Source: Methanocorpusculum labreanum Z
Lineage (GTDB): Archaea; Halobacteriota; Methanomicrobia; Methanomicrobiales; Methanocorpusculaceae
Length of the DNA: 64,000 bases
NCBI RefSeq assembly: GCF_000015765.1
Contig: NC_008942.1
Coordinates: 1,689,921 to 1,753,920 of the forward strand
Direction of reading: 5' to 3'
In this document: positions 23,624-31,210 of the stretch, piece by piece
Position numbering within the stretch: the first letter of the stretch is position 1
Layout: each line of letters opens with the position of its first letter
Notes under the pieces: generated by a model
The model's database searches: none
The model's input: the letters and a program-made list of their open reading frames with translations, nothing else
Told to the model about the DNA's origin: nothing
Program-made: the position numbers and the translations under genes

Positions 23624-24106
23624 ATGGATGCAGAAGAGCTGGAGGAGGATGTCCGGGGGTTGTATTCTCCGGATACGAAAGCGGCGTATGCGAGTTTTTT
23701 GCGGCTGAAGGCAGAGAGCGAGGAGGGCGATTCGGTGTACCGGTTCTGGGACGATTTTGCCGGGATGATGGAGAATGAGAATTCGTATGTCCGGACCCGG
23801 GGCCTTTTGCTGATCGCAGCGAACGCGAAATGGGATACGGATCATAAGCTGGACGGTGTCCTCCCCCAGTATCTTGAGCATATTTTAGATGAGAAGCCGA
23901 TCACGGCCCGGCAGTGTATTTCGGCGCTGAAGAGTATTGTTTCGGCGAGAGGGGATCTTGTCCCGGAGATACGGCAGGCGCTGGAGACAGCGGATACGGG
24001 GAGGTATAATGCGAATATGCGGCCGCTGATCGAGAAGGATATCGCAGGGGTGCTGAAGATGATGGAGGGGGTGAGGGGGAATCCCCTGGGGAAAGATACG
24101 AATTAA
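23624..24106 (+). CDS. HEAT-like helical protein
   Basis: About 160 aa, all helical, with HEAT-like pairs (VRTRGLLLIAANAKWD, then ARQCISALKSIV). The ATG at 23624 is preferred because GGAG lies 6 nt before it; an in-frame GTG at 23609 lacks such a site. Related small HEAT-type proteins are found in Firmicutes and methanogens with no known role. It is the last gene with the base composition of the chromosome before the AT-rich island. Confidence 0.7.
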   Translation: MDAEELEEDVRGLYSPDTKAAYASFLRLKAESEEGDSVYRFWDDFAGMMENENSYVRTRGLLLIAANAKWDTDHKLDGVLPQYLEHILDEKPITARQCISALKSIVSARGDLVPEIRQALETADTGRYNANMRPLIEKDIAGVLKMMEGVRGNPLGKDTN

Positions 24107-24131
24107 TACCTTGAAGATAGGTAATATTAAT

Positions 24132-24146
24132 ATGAGTGAAATATGA
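24132..24146 (+). other. possible 4-codon leader ORF
   Basis: ATG AGT GAA ATA TGA overlaps the start codon of the methyltransferase in ATGA fashion, and AGGT precedes it. It might couple translation of the operon to the leader. Chance is not excluded. Confidence 0.2.
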
Positions 24147-25243
24147 ATCTGAAAGAATTGGATGAGATAAAATATAATAATCAATATAAAAATTCTCTTA
24201 ATTCATTATCACCATATATCGGGAGACTGCGTTATGAGTGCGCAGGGTATTTGATTGATCAATATGCTCAACCTGATGAAATACTATTTGATCCATTTTG
24301 TGGTAGTGGAACAGTATTACTTGAGGGTTGGGCTAAAGGTTACAATGTAATGGGCAATGACCTCAATTATTATGCTTATGTTCTAACAATGGGTAAATTA
24401 TATCCCTATCAAACAGAACTTGATGCATTAGCAACTCTTGATAGATATAATAATCGAGTAACCAAAAAAACAAGTCAAATAAATCTGGATGTTATTCCCG
24501 AATGGGTACAATCCTTTTACCATCCTCAGACACTTCGGGAAATAATTGCCTGGACGTATTATCTCAGAAAAAATAAGGAATGGTTCCTGCTTTCTTGTCT
24601 CATGGGTATTTTGCATCACCAACGTCCAGGATTTTTGTCCTATCCCTCAAGTCACGGGGTACCTTATTTACGTACAAACAAATACCCTCGGGAAAATTAC
24701 CCGGAAATGTATTCTTATAGAAATGTTTACGAAAAACTCAACGCAAAGATAAAAAGAAGTTATAAATACATACCAAATTTGGATTTTTCTAAAGAGCGCA
24801 TTGTTTACAACAAAAATTCTGCATCAATGAAAATCAATCAAGATAGAATTGGTACAATTATTACAAGTCCACCCTATATGAAGTCATTAACATATGCACG
24901 TGATAATCGCTTGAGATTATGGTTTTTAGGAAAAGATGATTGGAATTCGTTAGATCAAAAAATATCTCCACAAGGGAATGATTTTATCTTAATGATGAAG
25001 CAATGCATCAAAAAATGGTCTGAACATCAAATATCTGGTGATAAATGTGTAGTTGTTCTTGGAGATATAAATATTCAATATAAAAATCAGAAAATACCTC
25101 TGGCTGAAATGTTAACGGAAATTTCCTCAAAAAAATATCGTTTGGTTGAAGCATTTTATGATTCTATACCCGAAGCAAAAAAACAGATTAAAGGTAAAGA
25201 TTTAGTTAAAAGAGAGATAATTACTGTCTTAGAAAGGATATGA
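24143..25243 (+). CDS. SAM-dependent DNA/RNA methyltransferase, TSPPY type
   Basis: A 366-aa methyltransferase with SAM-binding motif I DPFCGSGTVLLEGWAKGYN at about 49-67 and catalytic motif IV TSPPY at about 245-249. This is the signature of amino-methyltransferases that act on adenine-N6 or cytosine-N4 of DNA, or on guanine-N2 of RNA. The motif I-before-IV order and absence of a visible target-recognition domain do not decide the substrate. Codon use is strongly AT-biased, unlike the flanks. First gene of a three-gene operon with a kinase-ATPase and an unknown protein, so host-DNA marking is a reasonable guess. Confidence 0.85.
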   Translation: MNLKELDEIKYNNQYKNSLNSLSPYIGRLRYECAGYLIDQYAQPDEILFDPFCGSGTVLLEGWAKGYNVMGNDLNYYAYVLTMGKLYPYQTELDALATLDRYNNRVTKKTSQINLDVIPEWVQSFYHPQTLREIIAWTYYLRKNKEWFLLSCLMGILHHQRPGFLSYPSSHGVPYLRTNKYPRENYPEMYSYRNVYEKLNAKIKRSYKYIPNLDFSKERIVYNKNSASMKINQDRIGTIITSPPYMKSLTYARDNRLRLWFLGKDDWNSLDQKISPQGNDFILMMKQCIKKWSEHQISGDKCVVVLGDINIQYKNQKIPLAEMLTEISSKKYRLVEAFYDSIPEAKKQIKGKDLVKREIITVLERI

Positions 25244-25247
25244 AAAA

Positions 25248-27791
25248 ATGGAGTCTGATAGTTTCATTGATGTTAATATACATGAATATATAATTAAAGA
25301 GGAAATTGGCAAAGGATTTTACGGGAAGGTCTTTAGAGGAGAGAGGGAAAATTACGGAAATCGTGCAATTAAATTTGTTCCAGAGGAAATGGTATTAAAA
25401 AAACCAACATGGGAACAAGAAATCACTAAAGTTGTTAAACTGGAACAAACAGAGGGAGTAGTCCGTTATCATGATCATGGATTTAAAGAAATCTCTGGAA
25501 AAAAATATCTCTATATAATATGGGACTATATTAATGGTGAAAGTCTCGCCACCATTATAGAAAAGAAGAAAGTTACAATACAGATGTTGATCGACATTAT
25601 TGATCGAACACTAGCTGTTTTTCATGCATGCAAACAACTGGGCATTCAACATGCTGACTTTCATTCCGGAAATATCATAATTGAAAATCCAGATCCCTTA
25701 TCAATTAATCCAAATCAGCGTAGGGTATTCATAACAGATTTTGGATATGGTACTTTCTCCCCCAGTATCATTTCCGAAGAAATAATGGATGACTACAAAG
25801 GCTTTGCACGTATTATTCAAGAATGTCTCGAATCAATTGACATGCATTCTCTCAATCTTGAAGACAGAAATAAATATCGGATCATAAAAAATGAATTCCC
25901 AAAATTATTATTTGAAAATGATAGAACTGAGGGTGAGTATGTAAAAAATCCACAAGAAATTCGGAGTGCATTGTATAAATTATTTAATAAAGATGAATTA
26001 TCCCAAAAAAAGATAAAATCTATCGGAGATTATTTAGTTGCAGAATATATGGGTGAGCGCTTTGAGGATTGGGAAGCCCTATTTGTACCTAAATTTCTAG
26101 CCAAAGATGAATTATTCGATAAAAACATTTGTGTTTTGACAGGATTACGCGGTTGCGGTAAAACAACAATTTTTATGAGAGTCAGTCATGATTTAAAAAA
26201 GAGATTGGGTAATGCCGGTATCCCAGGGGAAGATGGATTTATTGGGTTATATTTGAATGCGAGGACAATTGCTGAAGCTTTTCCTTGGCTACCTTTGGAA
26301 AAACAAGATGAGGCACGTAAACAAGTCATCAATTATTTCAATCTGAAATGGACGATTCAAATTCTTGAATGGTTACGATACGAGGTGGAGAAAAATAAAA
26401 ATATAGATTGTTTCTGGATAAGTTCATTCTTTACTCAGTATTTGAAAGATTGTTATTTTACCAGTACATCTAATGAGGGAATAATTAATACAGCGATATC
26501 TGGGTGTGAAAACGAATTATTAAAATGTAAACTAGGTGCCAAATATTTGCCCGAGCTACCATGGGTATTTTCTGATTACGATTACTTAGAGGATTTTATA
26601 AAAACTATCATCAAAAATTGTTGTTTTGCAGAGGATAAAGATTTCTTCCTCTTTTTAGACGATTACTCATCCCCAATGATCAACGAGTGTACACAAAAGA
26701 TTCTTAATCCAATAATTTTCAGGAGAACATCGTCTGTTTTCTTTAAAATATCTACAGAAAGCGTTGCGAGTTTTATACCCTACGGATTAAATGATAAAAA
26801 ACTTGAAGAAAATAATGATTACAAACTGATTGATCTCAGTATAAAATCGATAACAAATGAGAACAATAGCGAAAACGAAGATATTATTAACTCTATATTC
26901 AAACGACGAATAGAGAGAAGTGATCTCTTTGCAAATTATAATACAAATTTAAAGGAGTTACTAGGGGAGTATAAACTTTCAGATAATGAGCGGGCACGTA
27001 AAATTATAGAGAATGAGGCCTCAAATTCCTACTATGGAGTTGGAGTTTTTTATGATATATGGTCAAGTGACATCAGAGAATTAATTAAAATATTCTCACA
27101 AATGGTGTCGGAAGAAAAGGATATTTGGAAGAGAATTGAAGATGTACGGTCTAAAAATAATCCCGATGACACGTTTATAATTCAGATAAAAAATCAGAAT
27201 AATGTATTTCGAAGGGCGGGTGGAACTTATCTTAATTTATTGAAAACAGCAATGAATCCCTGTGGTAATGGTAATATTACCGATAAAAATAGTTTGGAAA
27301 CATATGGGGATCATCTATTTGCTATCTCATCGGCGTTTCAAAAAATCATAAATCATGATTTGAAAAATAAAACTTCAAGAAACTGTGATTATAATCCTCC
27401 AAAACAAGCTAGAAGAATTGAAATATCAGATGGATCAATAATTGGAAAACTTGACCCAATTGCCGAATGTTATTATAAAGGCCTTATCCGATATGGCGTC
27501 TTTGTTCAGGATCCGCGTGCAAAAAGTGTTCGAAGTTCGATTGCAACACGAATATATTTACGTAGTTTATTTGTACCATATTTTAACATTACTTTTTCTA
27601 AAAGGGATAGTATAACTCTTGGTTGGAAAGAGTTCAAAGAGTTACTTCTTACACCAGATGAATTTGCAGATAAATATATAAAATCGAGCAATGAGCACTT
27701 AGAGAGGAAACGCTTGAAGGAGGAACGCCTGAAAAAGGATCAACTGAAAAAGGAACAACAGACAAAATTATTTGGAGATGAGGATGATTGA
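25248..27791 (+). CDS. protein kinase domain fused to P-loop ATPase
   Basis: An 847-aa cytoplasmic fusion. Residues about 10-270 form a Ser/Thr kinase-like domain: glycine loop IGKGFYGKVFRGE, lysine in RAIKF, catalytic loop HADFHSGNI and metal-binding TDFGYGTF. Residues about 280-600 form an AAA/STAND-like ATPase with Walker A GLRGCGKTT (299-307) and Walker B FFLFLDD (466-472). The tail is a lysine/glutamate-rich coiled coil (HLERKRLKEERLKKDQ). All kinase catalytic residues appear kept. It begins 4 nt after the methyltransferase stop and overlaps the next gene. Kinase-ATPase fusions with methyltransferases recall phage-defence loci; function is not established. Confidence 0.85.
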   Translation: MESDSFIDVNIHEYIIKEEIGKGFYGKVFRGERENYGNRAIKFVPEEMVLKKPTWEQEITKVVKLEQTEGVVRYHDHGFKEISGKKYLYIIWDYINGESLATIIEKKKVTIQMLIDIIDRTLAVFHACKQLGIQHADFHSGNIIIENPDPLSINPNQRRVFITDFGYGTFSPSIISEEIMDDYKGFARIIQECLESIDMHSLNLEDRNKYRIIKNEFPKLLFENDRTEGEYVKNPQEIRSALYKLFNKDELSQKKIKSIGDYLVAEYMGERFEDWEALFVPKFLAKDELFDKNICVLTGLRGCGKTTIFMRVSHDLKKRLGNAGIPGEDGFIGLYLNARTIAEAFPWLPLEKQDEARKQVINYFNLKWTIQILEWLRYEVEKNKNIDCFWISSFFTQYLKDCYFTSTSNEGIINTAISGCENELLKCKLGAKYLPELPWVFSDYDYLEDFIKTIIKNCCFAEDKDFFLFLDDYSSPMINECTQKILNPIIFRRTSSVFFKISTESVASFIPYGLNDKKLEENNDYKLIDLSIKSITNENNSENEDIINSIFKRRIERSDLFANYNTNLKELLGEYKLSDNERARKIIENEASNSYYGVGVFYDIWSSDIRELIKIFSQMVSEEKDIWKRIEDVRSKNNPDDTFIIQIKNQNNVFRRAGGTYLNLLKTAMNPCGNGNITDKNSLETYGDHLFAISSAFQKIINHDLKNKTSRNCDYNPPKQARRIEISDGSIIGKLDPIAECYYKGLIRYGVFVQDPRAKSVRSSIATRIYLRSLFVPYFNITFSKRDSITLGWKEFKELLLTPDEFADKYIKSSNEHLERKRLKEERLKKDQLKKEQQTKLFGDEDD

Positions 27792-28860
27792 AACCAATAA
27801 AATGAAACGATTACCGCTAATTGAAGAAGCTTCTAGAATAGATGAGAAATCTATTTCGACAAGATTATTAATTATTTCAGAAGGGTTTGAATCACGATCA
27901 TTATCTTGGATTACCGCACAACCAAAGAATAGCAGTCTATTTAATGAAGCATGGGTTTGCAAATATGAACCCAGTAAAAAATCCAAATATCAAGATATGA
28001 TACAGGAAGTCTCGTGCAGGACCAATAATGTACACACGATTGAATTTAACCGATTTAGTCCAACTATTTTTGAACAAAAATTAAATAACCACATATCTCA
28101 AATAGATCGTTTTGATGAAATTATAATTGATATCACTGTGATGTCAAAGATTCTCATCATGATACTATTATGTTCACTTAATAGATATAATAAAAAACTG
28201 ACAATTATTTATTCAGAACCAATAACCTGGAGCCCATCTCTGGAAAAATACAATGAGGAAGTCTCTAAACGTAATATTTGTGATAATGACAGCATTCTCA
28301 CTTATTTTGGTCTTTCATCAGTAGGGGTATATGACATTGTCAAAACACCAAAACTATCAAGTATTGTTATGCAAAATAGTCCATCTATTTTGATTGCATT
28401 TTTATCGTTTAATGAACAACTCCTTACAGTTTTACTAAATAATACAAACCCCGAATCCATATTCCTTATTAACACCATAAATGAGAGAGAGACGTGGAGA
28501 GAAGAAGCAACAATTGATATTCATAAAAATATAATTAACACATCTCCTCTTTATGAGAGTATTCAGAATTATAAATTAACAGACTATATCGGTGTTTTTG
28601 AGAAGATTGCTAAAATTTATCAAGAGAATAATTATTCCAATCGGATAATCATTTCTCCAACAGGATGTAAACTCCATGCAGTTGCTTGTGCACTTATGAA
28701 AAACTGTTGCTCAGATATTCACGTGGAATATCCAATCCCTAATAGTTATATTTTTGAGGGTTATTCAAGTGATGAAATCTATAAAATACATCAGATCGTA
28801 TTCAATTCATATATGGATGATATGATATCTATAGCAGAAGAATATCATTTGAATGGTTAG
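27784..28860 (+). CDS. unrecognised third component of the AT-rich operon
   Basis: About 358 aa from ATG 27784, which has GGAG 6 nt upstream and overlaps the kinase gene by 8 nt; an upstream TTG (27772) is less likely. No family is recognised. The N-terminal half looks like an alpha/beta domain (RLLIISEGFESRSLSW, EIIIDITVMSKI). Near residue 295 the segment IIISPTGCKLHAVACALM resembles the glycine loop of CARF/Rossmann-type sensor domains, which bind nucleotides. Tight coupling suggests it works with the ATPase. Confidence 0.7.
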   Translation: MIETNKMKRLPLIEEASRIDEKSISTRLLIISEGFESRSLSWITAQPKNSSLFNEAWVCKYEPSKKSKYQDMIQEVSCRTNNVHTIEFNRFSPTIFEQKLNNHISQIDRFDEIIIDITVMSKILIMILLCSLNRYNKKLTIIYSEPITWSPSLEKYNEEVSKRNICDNDSILTYFGLSSVGVYDIVKTPKLSSIVMQNSPSILIAFLSFNEQLLTVLLNNTNPESIFLINTINERETWREEATIDIHKNIINTSPLYESIQNYKLTDYIGVFEKIAKIYQENNYSNRIIISPTGCKLHAVACALMKNCCSDIHVEYPIPNSYIFEGYSSDEIYKIHQIVFNSYMDDMISIAEEYHLNG

Positions 28861-29136
28861 AATATCATAATTTGAATTGACCTACGATTGTTTTTGAGAT
28901 CATAGGGTAATTCCTTGTGAATATAATTGCTCAGAACTTGCCCAAAATCAAAACGGGGTAGCTGAGTTGGACTTAAATGGGATCATAAAAATTGTCGCGT
29001 TTATTCGCGATTGCGTGCAAGCCAAAGGCTTGCGTGCCGCCTCAAGCGGGCTTGGCCCGCTTGGGCTTATTCGCGGTGAGATATCTCATAAAGCCACACT
29101 CGGCAAACTCCTTCCTGAGATACGATCCAAGTAATT
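28861..29136. other. intergenic remnant of an inverted-repeat element
   Basis: No gene is seen. At 28990-29075, CGCGTTTATTCGCGA and TTATTCGCGG flank two GC-rich hairpins (GCAAGCC..GGCTTGC and CAAGCGGGC..GCCCGCTTG). This is the same plan as elements A to C (TTCGCG ends, two hairpins) but without the 107-bp arms, so it looks like a short relative or remnant. Confidence 0.5.
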
Positions 29137-29378
29137 AGTGTCACATTTTTCTCAAAACCCTGGGAAAAATTTCTAAACCCTAATTCTACGCCTAATTACT
29201 ACAAATACGAGAGTTTCGGGAAAAACCTGACACCACATAATAAATCCACCATATGCCCTGTTTTTTAAAAATTCAGCCAAAATATGCCAGATTTTAGTGT
29301 CACCATCATTTTTCAAAACCTGACACCAAATTCCCTCCAAAAAAGAAGTGTCACGTTTTTCAAAAAGCAACGTGACAC
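29137..29378. repeat. six TGTCA/TGACA repeats beside the D5-type helicase gene
   Basis: AGTGTCAC occurs at 29137, 29296 and 29347 on the plus strand. CTGACACC or GTGACAC occurs at 29227, 29320 and 29372 in the opposite sense. The last two copies form a perfect 10-bp inverted repeat, GTGTCACGTT/AACGTGACAC (29348-29357, 29369-29378). The region is AT-rich and ends 12 bp from the replication protein's stop codon. Iteron-like origin or a regulator/terminator site are both possible. Confidence 0.55.
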
Positions 29379-29389
29379 AAAACTCACCT

Positions 29390-31210
29390 CTATTTCAGCC
29401 GGCACTTGAAATACCGCTGACTGTTCGTCCGCTGTTCCTCAAACCCATACACCCGCATCCCCTTAAACAGCCCCCTCTTCTCCTTCTCCGACAGACCCTG
29501 CCGGAAATTCACCTGCGAATACTCATCATACCCCGGCATCTGGATCTTAGCAAGCCCCACCGGAATATCATGGCGGGCACACCACGAAATATACGCCTCC
29601 TCCAGCTCCAGACGGGACACACGCCCCGTCTCAGATTTTTCCACACACTCCTCGATAAACGCCGACACCTCAAACCCCGCCAGCAGCTCATTCTGCGTGG
29701 ATGCGCAAAACGCCGGCTGCGGCAAAAGCCCCTCCTTCGTATACGCGATCAGCTCATCCGCCACCATCGAAAAGACCGCATCCCGCTCCGCAAGCAAACA
29801 CTCCCGGATATCACGCGCCCGCTCATCCCCCGCAAACAAATGCGGGAACGGGATCGTAAAAATCCGGCGCAGAAGAGCGTAATCCAGCGTCTTATCGAAC
29901 CGGGGCAGCTCATTCGTCACCCCCACCGGCGTGCACACCACCCGCTGCGGGCGGGACTTCTCATACATATCCCGAAACCGGCTTGTCACCGCGTCCCCCG
30001 TCAAAGCTTTCACCGTATCCGCGCTGATCCGGCCGCCCCGCGACTCCTCATCGCTCGCCTCCGAAATCAGCATCACCCGCTTTGAAAGCGACCGGGCAAC
30101 CCCCGACGCCGGACGATCCTCGGACCCCGCATACAGCTCACGGACCGAAGCCTCCGACATCTCCGACCCGAAAATCTCCCGCAGCACGTCGATCGTCGTC
30201 GACTTCCCGTTACTCCCCTTCCCCCACAGAAAAATAATCACCTGCTCCGGATTGCCCGGAAACAGCAGATAACCCAGCAGACGCAGAAAACACCTGCCGA
30301 GTTCCATCATCTGGAGCGTCCGCTCCTCCTCAGAAAGACCGCTCACATTGTCATCGAACACCTTTTTGAGGTGGTCGATGAACGCCGGCGAGCGAAGCCC
30401 CGGCGTGTAGACGGCGTCCAGATAGATCAGCGGGTACTTCTCCCGGATCGAATCGCACGCCCAGATCGGGATGAACTCGCCCGTCCTGCAGTCGAGAGCG
30501 CCGTTTTTGCAGGTGATATACCGGCCGTCGGACGCCTCGGAAAGATTCACCTGCATGGACGAGCCTTCGATCATTTTTCTGAGGGCGACCTGTTTGGTGT
30601 GGTTTTTGCTCAGATTCACATGATTCTGGAGCTGGACAACGAGGTTTCGCATCTCGGGGGTGTTTTCGGCGGCGGCCCGGCGCTTCCAGTAGTCGAGTTC
30701 CTGTTCGAGGCTTTTCCCGACCAGCCGAAGGACCTTCCCGAGTTTTTCTCTGGCGGGTTCCCAGTGGTTGGTGATAAAGGCAAACCACTGGCCGCTCGCG
30801 ATGTCGTAGACGAGGTTGCCGCCGGCTTCTTTTTCGAAACGGACGGCGTTTCCTTCGTCGTTGAGGGAGTTGAGGAGAGCGTCGGGCGTGGGGAGCTGCC
30901 CGCGGATCATGGTTTTTCGCTCCCAGGGCGGGGTGGATGCCGGGTCGAAGAACCGGAGAAGGAACTCTTTTTCGGGGCCTTCCGGTTCGGTGTCGATGAT
31001 GTGTTCCCTGACAGCGCGCCGAAGGTCGGGGCCGGTGTCAAAGGTCGTAAGGATGTCGACGAGCTGGCCGAATTTATAGAGCTTGAACCGGTAGGATTGG
31101 ACGTCGAGACCGATTTTGGCTTCTTTCGGCGAAAGGGGTTCAGTGATCGTTTCAGTGAGTTCGGCGGTGTAGCCCGCCGGAAGCGGAGGGTTTGGCTGGT
31201 TCAAGGCCAT
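29390..31210 (-). CDS. D5/P4-type replication helicase-primase of a virus or plasmid
   Basis: A 606-aa SF3 helicase with Walker A GKGSNGKSTT (about 330-339), Walker B-like RVMLISEA (about 385-395) and a C-terminal winged-helix-like region. Residues 200-330 match the D5 N-terminal module (YITCKNGALDCRTGEF, then LGYLLFPGNPEQVIIFLWG). Such proteins unwind and prime DNA in phages, archaeal viruses and plasmids, so this marks an integrated element. GGAGGG precedes the ATG at 31210. No integrase is seen nearby. GC-rich, so its origin probably differs from the adjacent AT-rich operon. Confidence 0.85.
   Translation of the reverse strand: MALNQPNPPLPAGYTAELTETITEPLSPKEAKIGLDVQSYRFKLYKFGQLVDILTTFDTGPDLRRAVREHIIDTEPEGPEKEFLLRFFDPASTPPWERKTMIRGQLPTPDALLNSLNDEGNAVRFEKEAGGNLVYDIASGQWFAFITNHWEPAREKLGKVLRLVGKSLEQELDYWKRRAAAENTPEMRNLVVQLQNHVNLSKNHTKQVALRKMIEGSSMQVNLSEASDGRYITCKNGALDCRTGEFIPIWACDSIREKYPLIYLDAVYTPGLRSPAFIDHLKKVFDDNVSGLSEEERTLQMMELGRCFLRLLGYLLFPGNPEQVIIFLWGKGSNGKSTTIDVLREIFGSEMSEASVRELYAGSEDRPASGVARSLSKRVMLISEASDEESRGGRISADTVKALTGDAVTSRFRDMYEKSRPQRVVCTPVGVTNELPRFDKTLDYALLRRIFTIPFPHLFAGDERARDIRECLLAERDAVFSMVADELIAYTKEGLLPQPAFCASTQNELLAGFEVSAFIEECVEKSETGRVSRLELEEAYISWCARHDIPVGLAKIQMPGYDEYSQVNFRQGLSEKEKRGLFKGMRVYGFEEQRTNSQRYFKCRLK

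Follow-up and report, generated by a model that had tools for sequence, protein, structure and literature searches.

In the genome of Methanocorpusculum labreanum Z (G000; one contig of 1,804,962 bases), a stretch of 64,000 nucleotides, here termed the window, carries a compact operon of three genes. These encode a DNA methyltransferase (p1), a protein kinase fused to an ORC/CDC6-like AAA+ ATPase (p2) and a predicted tandem CARF protein (p3). In our judgment the chances are even that the operon constitutes a mobile, self-contained antiviral system, in which a ligand-gated CARF protein would control the kinase and ATPase, and methylation would mark self DNA. CARF proteins are known almost wholly as receivers of type III CRISPR messengers. 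Here, a mobile operon of both archaea and bacteria combines such a protein with a DNA methyltransferase, a protein kinase and a replication-initiator-like ATPase, in genomes in which Cas10 went undetected. If the operon is indeed immune in function, self-marking by methylation would be joined to second-messenger sensing and protein phosphorylation, which raises the question of which ligand CRISPR-independent CARF proteins read.

Table 1. Features of the operon and its surroundings, in positions of the window.
Feature	Position	Strand	Basis or remark
Operon p1-p2-p3	24143-25243, 25248-27791, 27784-28860	+	Three ORFs, co-directional, closely packed
Upstream region with AT-rich TATA-like element	24100..24142	+	Homology to relocated copy
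p1, DNA methyltransferase, 366 aa	24143..25243	+	Pfam and PADLOC profiles, PDB relatives, alignments
p1 motif I, DPFCGSGT	about 24290-24313	+	Motif reading
p1 motif IV, TSPPY	about 24863-24877	+	Motif reading
p2, protein kinase fused to ORC/CDC6-like AAA+ ATPase, 847 aa	25248..27791	+	Pfam, PADLOC, PDB
p2 kinase domain	25287..25754	+	Pfam PF00069, residues 14-169
p2 catalytic loop, HADFHSGN	25650-25673	+	Residue 135
p2 TDFG	25734-25745	+	Residue 163
p2 ORC/CDC6-like ATPase domain	26073..27008	+	Pfam PF24389, residues 276-587
p2 Walker A, GLRGCGKT, arginine in P-loop	26142-26165	+	Residue 299
p2 Walker B, LFLDDY	26649-26666	+	Residue 468
p3, predicted tandem CARF sensor protein, 358 aa	27784..28860	+	PADLOC, AF2 model, Foldseek, signature
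p3 N-half signature, DITVMSK	28129-28149	+	CARF signature
p3 C-half, SPTGCK	28654-28671	+	Related motif, matching place in second half
Variable cargo interval filled by operon	24081..29141	.	Both flanks conserved in related genomes
Dispersed intergenic repeat, between operon and right edge of the interval	28995..29118	.	Many partial matches in G017, G018, G028, G031
D5_N-type gene, right flank, then tRNA-Leu	29390-31210		ORF and tRNA annotation

The genes are tightly coupled: genes 1 and 2 are separated by 4 bp, while genes 2 and 3 share 8 bp when ATG 27784 is taken as the start of gene 3 (the frame is open from TTG 27772, which would give 362 aa). The upstream region moves with the operon, homology to a relocated copy in a related genome (G028) starting at position 24100, and its TATA-like element may serve as the promoter. 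In terms of base composition, the GC content of the operon is 0.322, versus a mean of 0.530 (SD 0.021, minimum 0.487) in 499 windows of 4.7 kb from the rest of the 64 kb, a deviation far beyond local variation. The bias is not peculiar to M. labreanum Z, since in each of the 11 host genomes compared the flanks are richer in GC than the operon, and the same comparison weakens the view that a single recent transfer accounts for the AT richness. The dN/dS values against the G028 copy (0.12, 0.20 and 0.19 for genes 1, 2 and 3, respectively) indicate that all three genes are real and under purifying selection. The synonymous divergence of gene 2 from that copy (0.61) exceeds that of its neighbours (0.30 and 0.22) two- to threefold, which suggests that recombination exchanged the middle gene.

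The first-pass annotation of this DNA had described three coupled genes with a strong AT bias against their flanks, a TSPPY-type methyltransferase, an apparently active kinase and a P-loop ATPase with intact Walker A and B motifs. All of this is borne out by the ORFs, the composition and the profile matches, and in alignments the motifs of p1, p2 and p3 are present and conserved among the homologues.

In p1, motif I precedes motif IV, and methyltransferase profiles of both Pfam (UPF0020, 7.7e-9; N6_N4_Mtase, 2.1e-6; D12, 3.6e-5) and PADLOC (MTase_II, 3e-16) match the protein. Over the motif I region, most of its PDB relatives are DNA N4-cytosine or N6-adenine methyltransferases, joined by some tRNA methyltransferases, and the sequence matches over motif I include Trm14-like enzymes; p1 could act on RNA instead of DNA.

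The second protein matches the Pfam families Pkinase (1.5e-14) and ORC-CDC6-like (6.8e-24), as well as the PADLOC profile CARF_STK_AAA (1.2e-18). The active-site lysine (in RAIK, residue 39), the HxDxHxGN catalytic loop (which differs from the eukaryotic HRD form), the DFG motif and both Walker motifs are intact, and the arginine of the P-loop is invariant across the close family. Relatives of the kinase in the PDB include ULK1, PknA and PknB, and PADLOC profiles reveal kinship to the defence kinases PD-T4-6 and MAD6. The matches listed from a fold search with the p2 model were essentially kinases only and shed no light on the ATPase domain or on the C-terminal tail. The end of the protein (about residues 590-847), for which the model is of moderate quality (pLDDT 72, pTM 0.52), may hide a nuclease or a DNA-binding domain.

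The third protein, previously considered unrecognised apart from an SPTG loop, is recognisable from PADLOC profiles, fold search and signature as a predicted tandem CARF protein of the CARF6 group. In PADLOC, p3 matches CARF6 (1.2e-11) and the CARF end of the CARF_STK_AAA fusion (1.9e-10), and the CARF6 profile also detects divergent homologues (5e-35 for L056 and 7e-21 for L057). The AlphaFold (AF2) model is confident (pLDDT 86.6, pTM 0.90) and consists of two Rossmann-like halves. The best Foldseek matches in the PDB include Cam1 (probability 1.00; TM 0.53-0.59, normalised to the target), Csm6 (probability 0.99) and Cad1. These matches extend over one CARF half at a time, and Rossmann proteins that are unrelated score in some cases too; the predicted fold is therefore supportive, but not decisive by itself. 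A search of PDB sequences with the p3 profile gave chance ribosomal matches only. The CARF signature after strand 4 has been defined as [DN]X[ST]XXX[RK] (PMC4012209). DITVMSK conforms to it and follows model strand 113-117. The signature is kept wherever a close homologue includes this part (with R for K in L054) and is not strictly followed in the divergent L055 and L057. The former SPTG loop is part of SPTGCK, and an hhalign comparison of the two halves, while not significant, superposes this motif on DITVMSK. From these features we infer that p3 is a sensor of a nucleotide ligand.

Homologues of p2 are distributed sporadically. They were detected in 3 of 33 genomes of the family, with strong matches in 4 of 393 genomes of the phylum and in 2 of 292 haloarchaeal genomes; a few were found among 392 genomes of the Scalindua phylum, and a single full-length match among 398 genomes of the Lachnospiraceae phylum. 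The scan of the genome collection added members from Lachnospiraceae, Scalindua, Natrinema, Halosimplex, two Methanoperedens, Methanophagales and ANME-2, and the Methanocorpusculum genome G020 also carries a homologue. Among 72,556 plasmid records, one matched over most of p2. Relatives of p2 were absent from IMG/VR viral contigs and phage records, and there is thus no sign of carriage by viruses.

The three-gene order was found in Methanocorpusculum, Methanoperedens, ANME-2, haloarchaea, Lachnospiraceae, Scalindua and on a Bradyrhizobium plasmid (L025), where the kinase and the ATPase are also split into separate genes. Wherever the upstream DNA is intact over a sufficient length, the methyltransferase gene is followed by the kinase-ATPase and CARF genes. 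The exception to the order, a Halosimplex locus (L018, 11995-14673), has a transposase-like gene interrupting the CARF gene, and a further one where the kinase N-terminus and the methyltransferase would be expected.

The close p1 family is confined to the same 4 of 393 genomes that hold strong p2 matches (at least 488 bits, the next methyltransferase scoring 192). For this close family, p1 as a general orphan methyltransferase is rejected; among its distant relatives no p2 or p3 neighbours were present in the loci read, and there the orphan status holds. The trees of p1, p2 and p3 are congruent (r = 0.93, 0.92 and 0.98), and the three proteins are inherited together. A copy in a rabbit-gut member of the Lachnospiraceae (L011:286-13533) clusters with the Methanocorpusculum copies at 54% identity, and its DNA also holds a type IIG restriction system and genes resembling an integrase and a relaxase; a transfer between domains in the gut is possible.

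Divergent loci combine the ATPase-CARF6 core with methyltransferases of other classes. One of them (L056:5583-11553) comprises an HD/YfbR-like nucleotidase, an N6_N4 methyltransferase, a kinase-less ORC-CDC6-like ATPase with a long C-terminal extension lacking a family assignment, and CARF6. In the other (L057:494-5954), a D12-class methyltransferase is divergently oriented beside a kinase-like/ATPase ORF pair and a CARF6 gene. In our view, this pairing of different methylases with the same core is the best evidence that DNA methylation would form part of the function.

The same pairing could be taken to indicate a variant of restriction-modification, in which p1 would protect the host and p2/p3 would restrict unmethylated DNA, by means of either a nuclease hidden in the end of p2 or one supplied in trans. 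Such a variant would be consistent with the constant association of a methyltransferase with a DNA-type AAA+ ATPase, with the recruitment of three methyltransferase classes, with the restriction genes adjoining two homologues (a type IIG enzyme at L011 and an Mrr-like nuclease at L025), and with the end of p2, which includes about 250 conserved residues lacking a family assignment. We nevertheless consider it unlikely. No nuclease family of Pfam, PADLOC or NCBIfam was matched by p1-p3, i.e., no cognate endonuclease was found there, and both a kinase and a CARF sensor would be superfluous for simple restriction. Furthermore, the target-recognition parts of restriction-modification methyltransferases are usually variable, whereas the stretch between motifs I and IV of p1 is strongly conserved (HHQRPGFLSYP).

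The operon of M. labreanum Z occupies a hotspot of variable cargo. In BLASTN comparisons with orthologous loci of related genomes (two places in G028, and G017, G018 and G031), homology ends at 24077-24082 and restarts at 29136-29142, and the DNA between these breakpoints differs in each case. The G028 copy of the operon lies at another site of that genome, with 86% nucleotide identity over 24100-28936. The hotspot is bounded by a 165-aa gene on one side and by a D5_N gene near a tRNA-Leu on the other. This succession of a D5_N-type gene and a tRNA-Leu at the right flank suggests that the site is the edge of an integrated element. The alternative cargo in the related genomes includes matches to the phage-defence-candidate profiles PDC-S70 and PDC-M19A, a Schlafen-AlbA/HATPase protein resembling pAgo-associated profiles, pentapeptide repeats and a weak PycTM match.

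In G028, the hotspot also holds cargo of toxin-antitoxin type. The operon could be viewed in this light as a stabiliser of mobile DNA, whose toxic kinase/ATPase would be held back by p3 or by p1 methylation, an arrangement with which the tight coupling and overlap of the genes and the relatedness of the kinase to PD-T4-6 and MAD6 would agree. This explanation is highly improbable for a large three-protein system that includes a DNA methyltransferase and a ligand-sensor fold and is borne mainly elsewhere than on plasmids (as the plasmid count given above indicates).

The antiviral reading of the operon draws instead on its sporadic occurrence, on the defence-like cargo of the hotspot and on the restriction genes beside some of its homologues, from which a role in defence appears probable. 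The defence-type context proposed at the outset is thus upheld; beside homologues of the 847-aa protein, methyltransferase and CARF partners recur, with a type IIG enzyme (L011), an Mrr-like nuclease (L025) and toxin and nuclease genes (L016) nearby.

The source of the ligand was considered in relation to CRISPR-Cas. In a search with Pfam PF22335 alone, the Cas10 palm was absent from seven of nine carrier genomes (G000, G028, G020, G384, G212, G412 and G413), while Cas1 was present in five of the nine. In addition to a typical Cas1 (at 837876), the genome of M. labreanum Z encodes a second, divergent Cas1-like gene (G000:C1:423304-424122). Since this single-profile search found no Cas10 in this host or in six other carriers, it is unlikely that the ligand of p3 is a Cas10 product of the same cell. 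For the same reason, and because no cas genes were seen adjoining members at the loci read, the operon can hardly be an ancillary module of type III CRISPR-Cas that answers cyclic oligoadenylate. This explanation, which would accommodate the CARF fold with its K/R after strand 4 and the structural matches to cOA-binding effectors, was already weakened and is now the least credible.

A different lead is provided by genes of nucleotide metabolism. In Scalindua, there is a 4-bp overlap between the end of the CARF gene and a gene for the thymidylate synthase ThyX (L014:13661-14296), and on the Bradyrhizobium plasmid ThyX (L025:13840-14763) is encoded 82 bp downstream of the CARF gene. The linked copy in Scalindua is not the sole one, as a second ThyX is present elsewhere, and ThyX had no match in the genome of the window. 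At L056, the YfbR-like nucleotidase gene adjoins the methyltransferase gene upstream on the same strand. With two cases, the recurrent ThyX is a concrete lead to nucleotide metabolism and not a rule.

These neighbours, together with a weak match of p3 to the archaeal CARF regulator HFX_2341-like, would also fit a regulatory switch, in which the CARF/kinase/ATPase proteins respond to a cellular nucleotide and govern either DNA methylation or the expression of genes, whether those of the host or those of the mobile element. A switch of this kind is distinctly unlikely in view of the patchy distribution, in a few percent of genomes or fewer, the mobile or defence-rich locations and the absence of a conserved host gene neighbour.

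In the antiviral system that we favour, infection would generate a nucleotide-type ligand, not derived from an in-genome Cas10, which would enter the pocket between the CARF halves of p3. Ligand-bound p3 would then act on p2, to which it is fused in other organisms; in response, the ATPase would assemble differently on DNA and the kinase would become active. Phosphorylation of p2 itself, or of targets in the cell or virus, would halt virus replication or cell growth, and methylation of host DNA by p1 would either silence the system on self DNA or set its threshold. The large ATPase had originally been proposed to sense invasion; the likely sensor would be the CARF protein p3 rather than the ATPase alone. 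With no nuclease recognised in the operon, phosphorylation or ATP-driven blocking of DNA would be a likelier output than cutting. Only tentatively do we put forward the broader proposal of a distinct class of immunity, i.e., a CRISPR-independent CARF-gated kinase/ORC-like ATPase combined with DNA methylation, responding to a non-Cas10 nucleotide signal, in which the ThyX and YfbR-like accessories would point to the deoxynucleotide state as the trigger or target.

Comparison with known systems places the operon near several of them. The type III CRISPR effectors Cam1, Csm6 and Cad1 have the CARF fold and signature in common with p3. In contrast to these effectors, which carry an attached nuclease, deaminase or pore, the operon encodes a separate kinase-ATPase effector, and p3 holds both CARF halves in one chain, in a host without detected Cas10. 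CARF regulators of the RtcR type likewise couple CARF to an AAA+ ATPase, and some are linked to restriction-modification, but their ATPase is NtrC-like with an HTH, whereas that of p2 is ORC/CDC6-like and joined to a kinase.

Type 2 BREX and Pgl share a kinase (PglW), an adenine methyltransferase (PglX), ATPases of the ORC/CDC6 type and a non-classical mode of restriction. The operon differs in lacking PglZ, BrxC and the helicase (PglZ and BrxC/PglY had no match in the operon or among the ten nearby genes examined), and the match of PglXI to p1 is weak (2.8e-5); its identification as BREX/Pgl is consequently rejected. No CARF protein is known to occur in Pgl. MADS, which consists of eight named proteins, also combines a methyltransferase with a protein kinase (the MAD6 profile matches at 2e-17) and an ATPase (the MAD8 profile matches at only 0.009), while the operon has three genes that include a CARF sensor. 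Identity with MADS is rejected as well, given the missing components and the score of p2, 34 bits versus an NCBIfam cut-off of 460 for MAD6.

The closest counterpart is CARF_STK_AAA, described by Makarova et al. in 2014 as a small family in which a single protein contains a zinc ribbon, a kinase, an AAA+ ATPase with an arginine in the P-loop, a CARF domain and a wHTH (PMC4012209). The corresponding PADLOC profile (PDLC01925, CARF6 CARF_STK_AAA, 1187 positions) aligns with p2 over positions 38-670 and with p3 over 867-1167, and p2 and p3 together are thus a split version of one catalogued protein. The kinase, the ATPase with its P-loop arginine and the CARF domain are shared in the same order and at similar length (847+358 versus 1187). 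The difference lies in the division: CARF_STK_AAA is one polypeptide, whereas the kinase-ATPase and CARF proteins are encoded by two genes in the window (three in Bradyrhizobium), with CARF encoded separately in every homologue read. Moreover, the kinase domain of p2 begins after 13 residues and cysteine pairs are absent, leaving p2 without the N-terminal zinc ribbon. A possible wHTH-like pattern lies at residues 737-801 of p2, in the only moderately modelled part, while p3 stops shortly past its second CARF half. The operon also starts with a dedicated DNA methyltransferase, of which the 2014 description makes no mention (PMC4012209).

The statement of the first-pass annotation that the system has no known name consequently holds for the three genes together, but not for the kinase-ATPase-CARF combination, catalogued as a single protein (PMC4012209; PDLC01925). 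PADLOC-DB 2023, Pfam, NCBIfam and the open-access literature searched yielded no named three-gene operon of this kind; the 2020 CARF classification (10.1093/nar/gkaa635), outside this coverage, may mention the linkage. The architecture of the proteins is therefore already known from CARF_STK_AAA, while the three-gene operon with its methyltransferase is apparently unnamed and possibly represents a new class.
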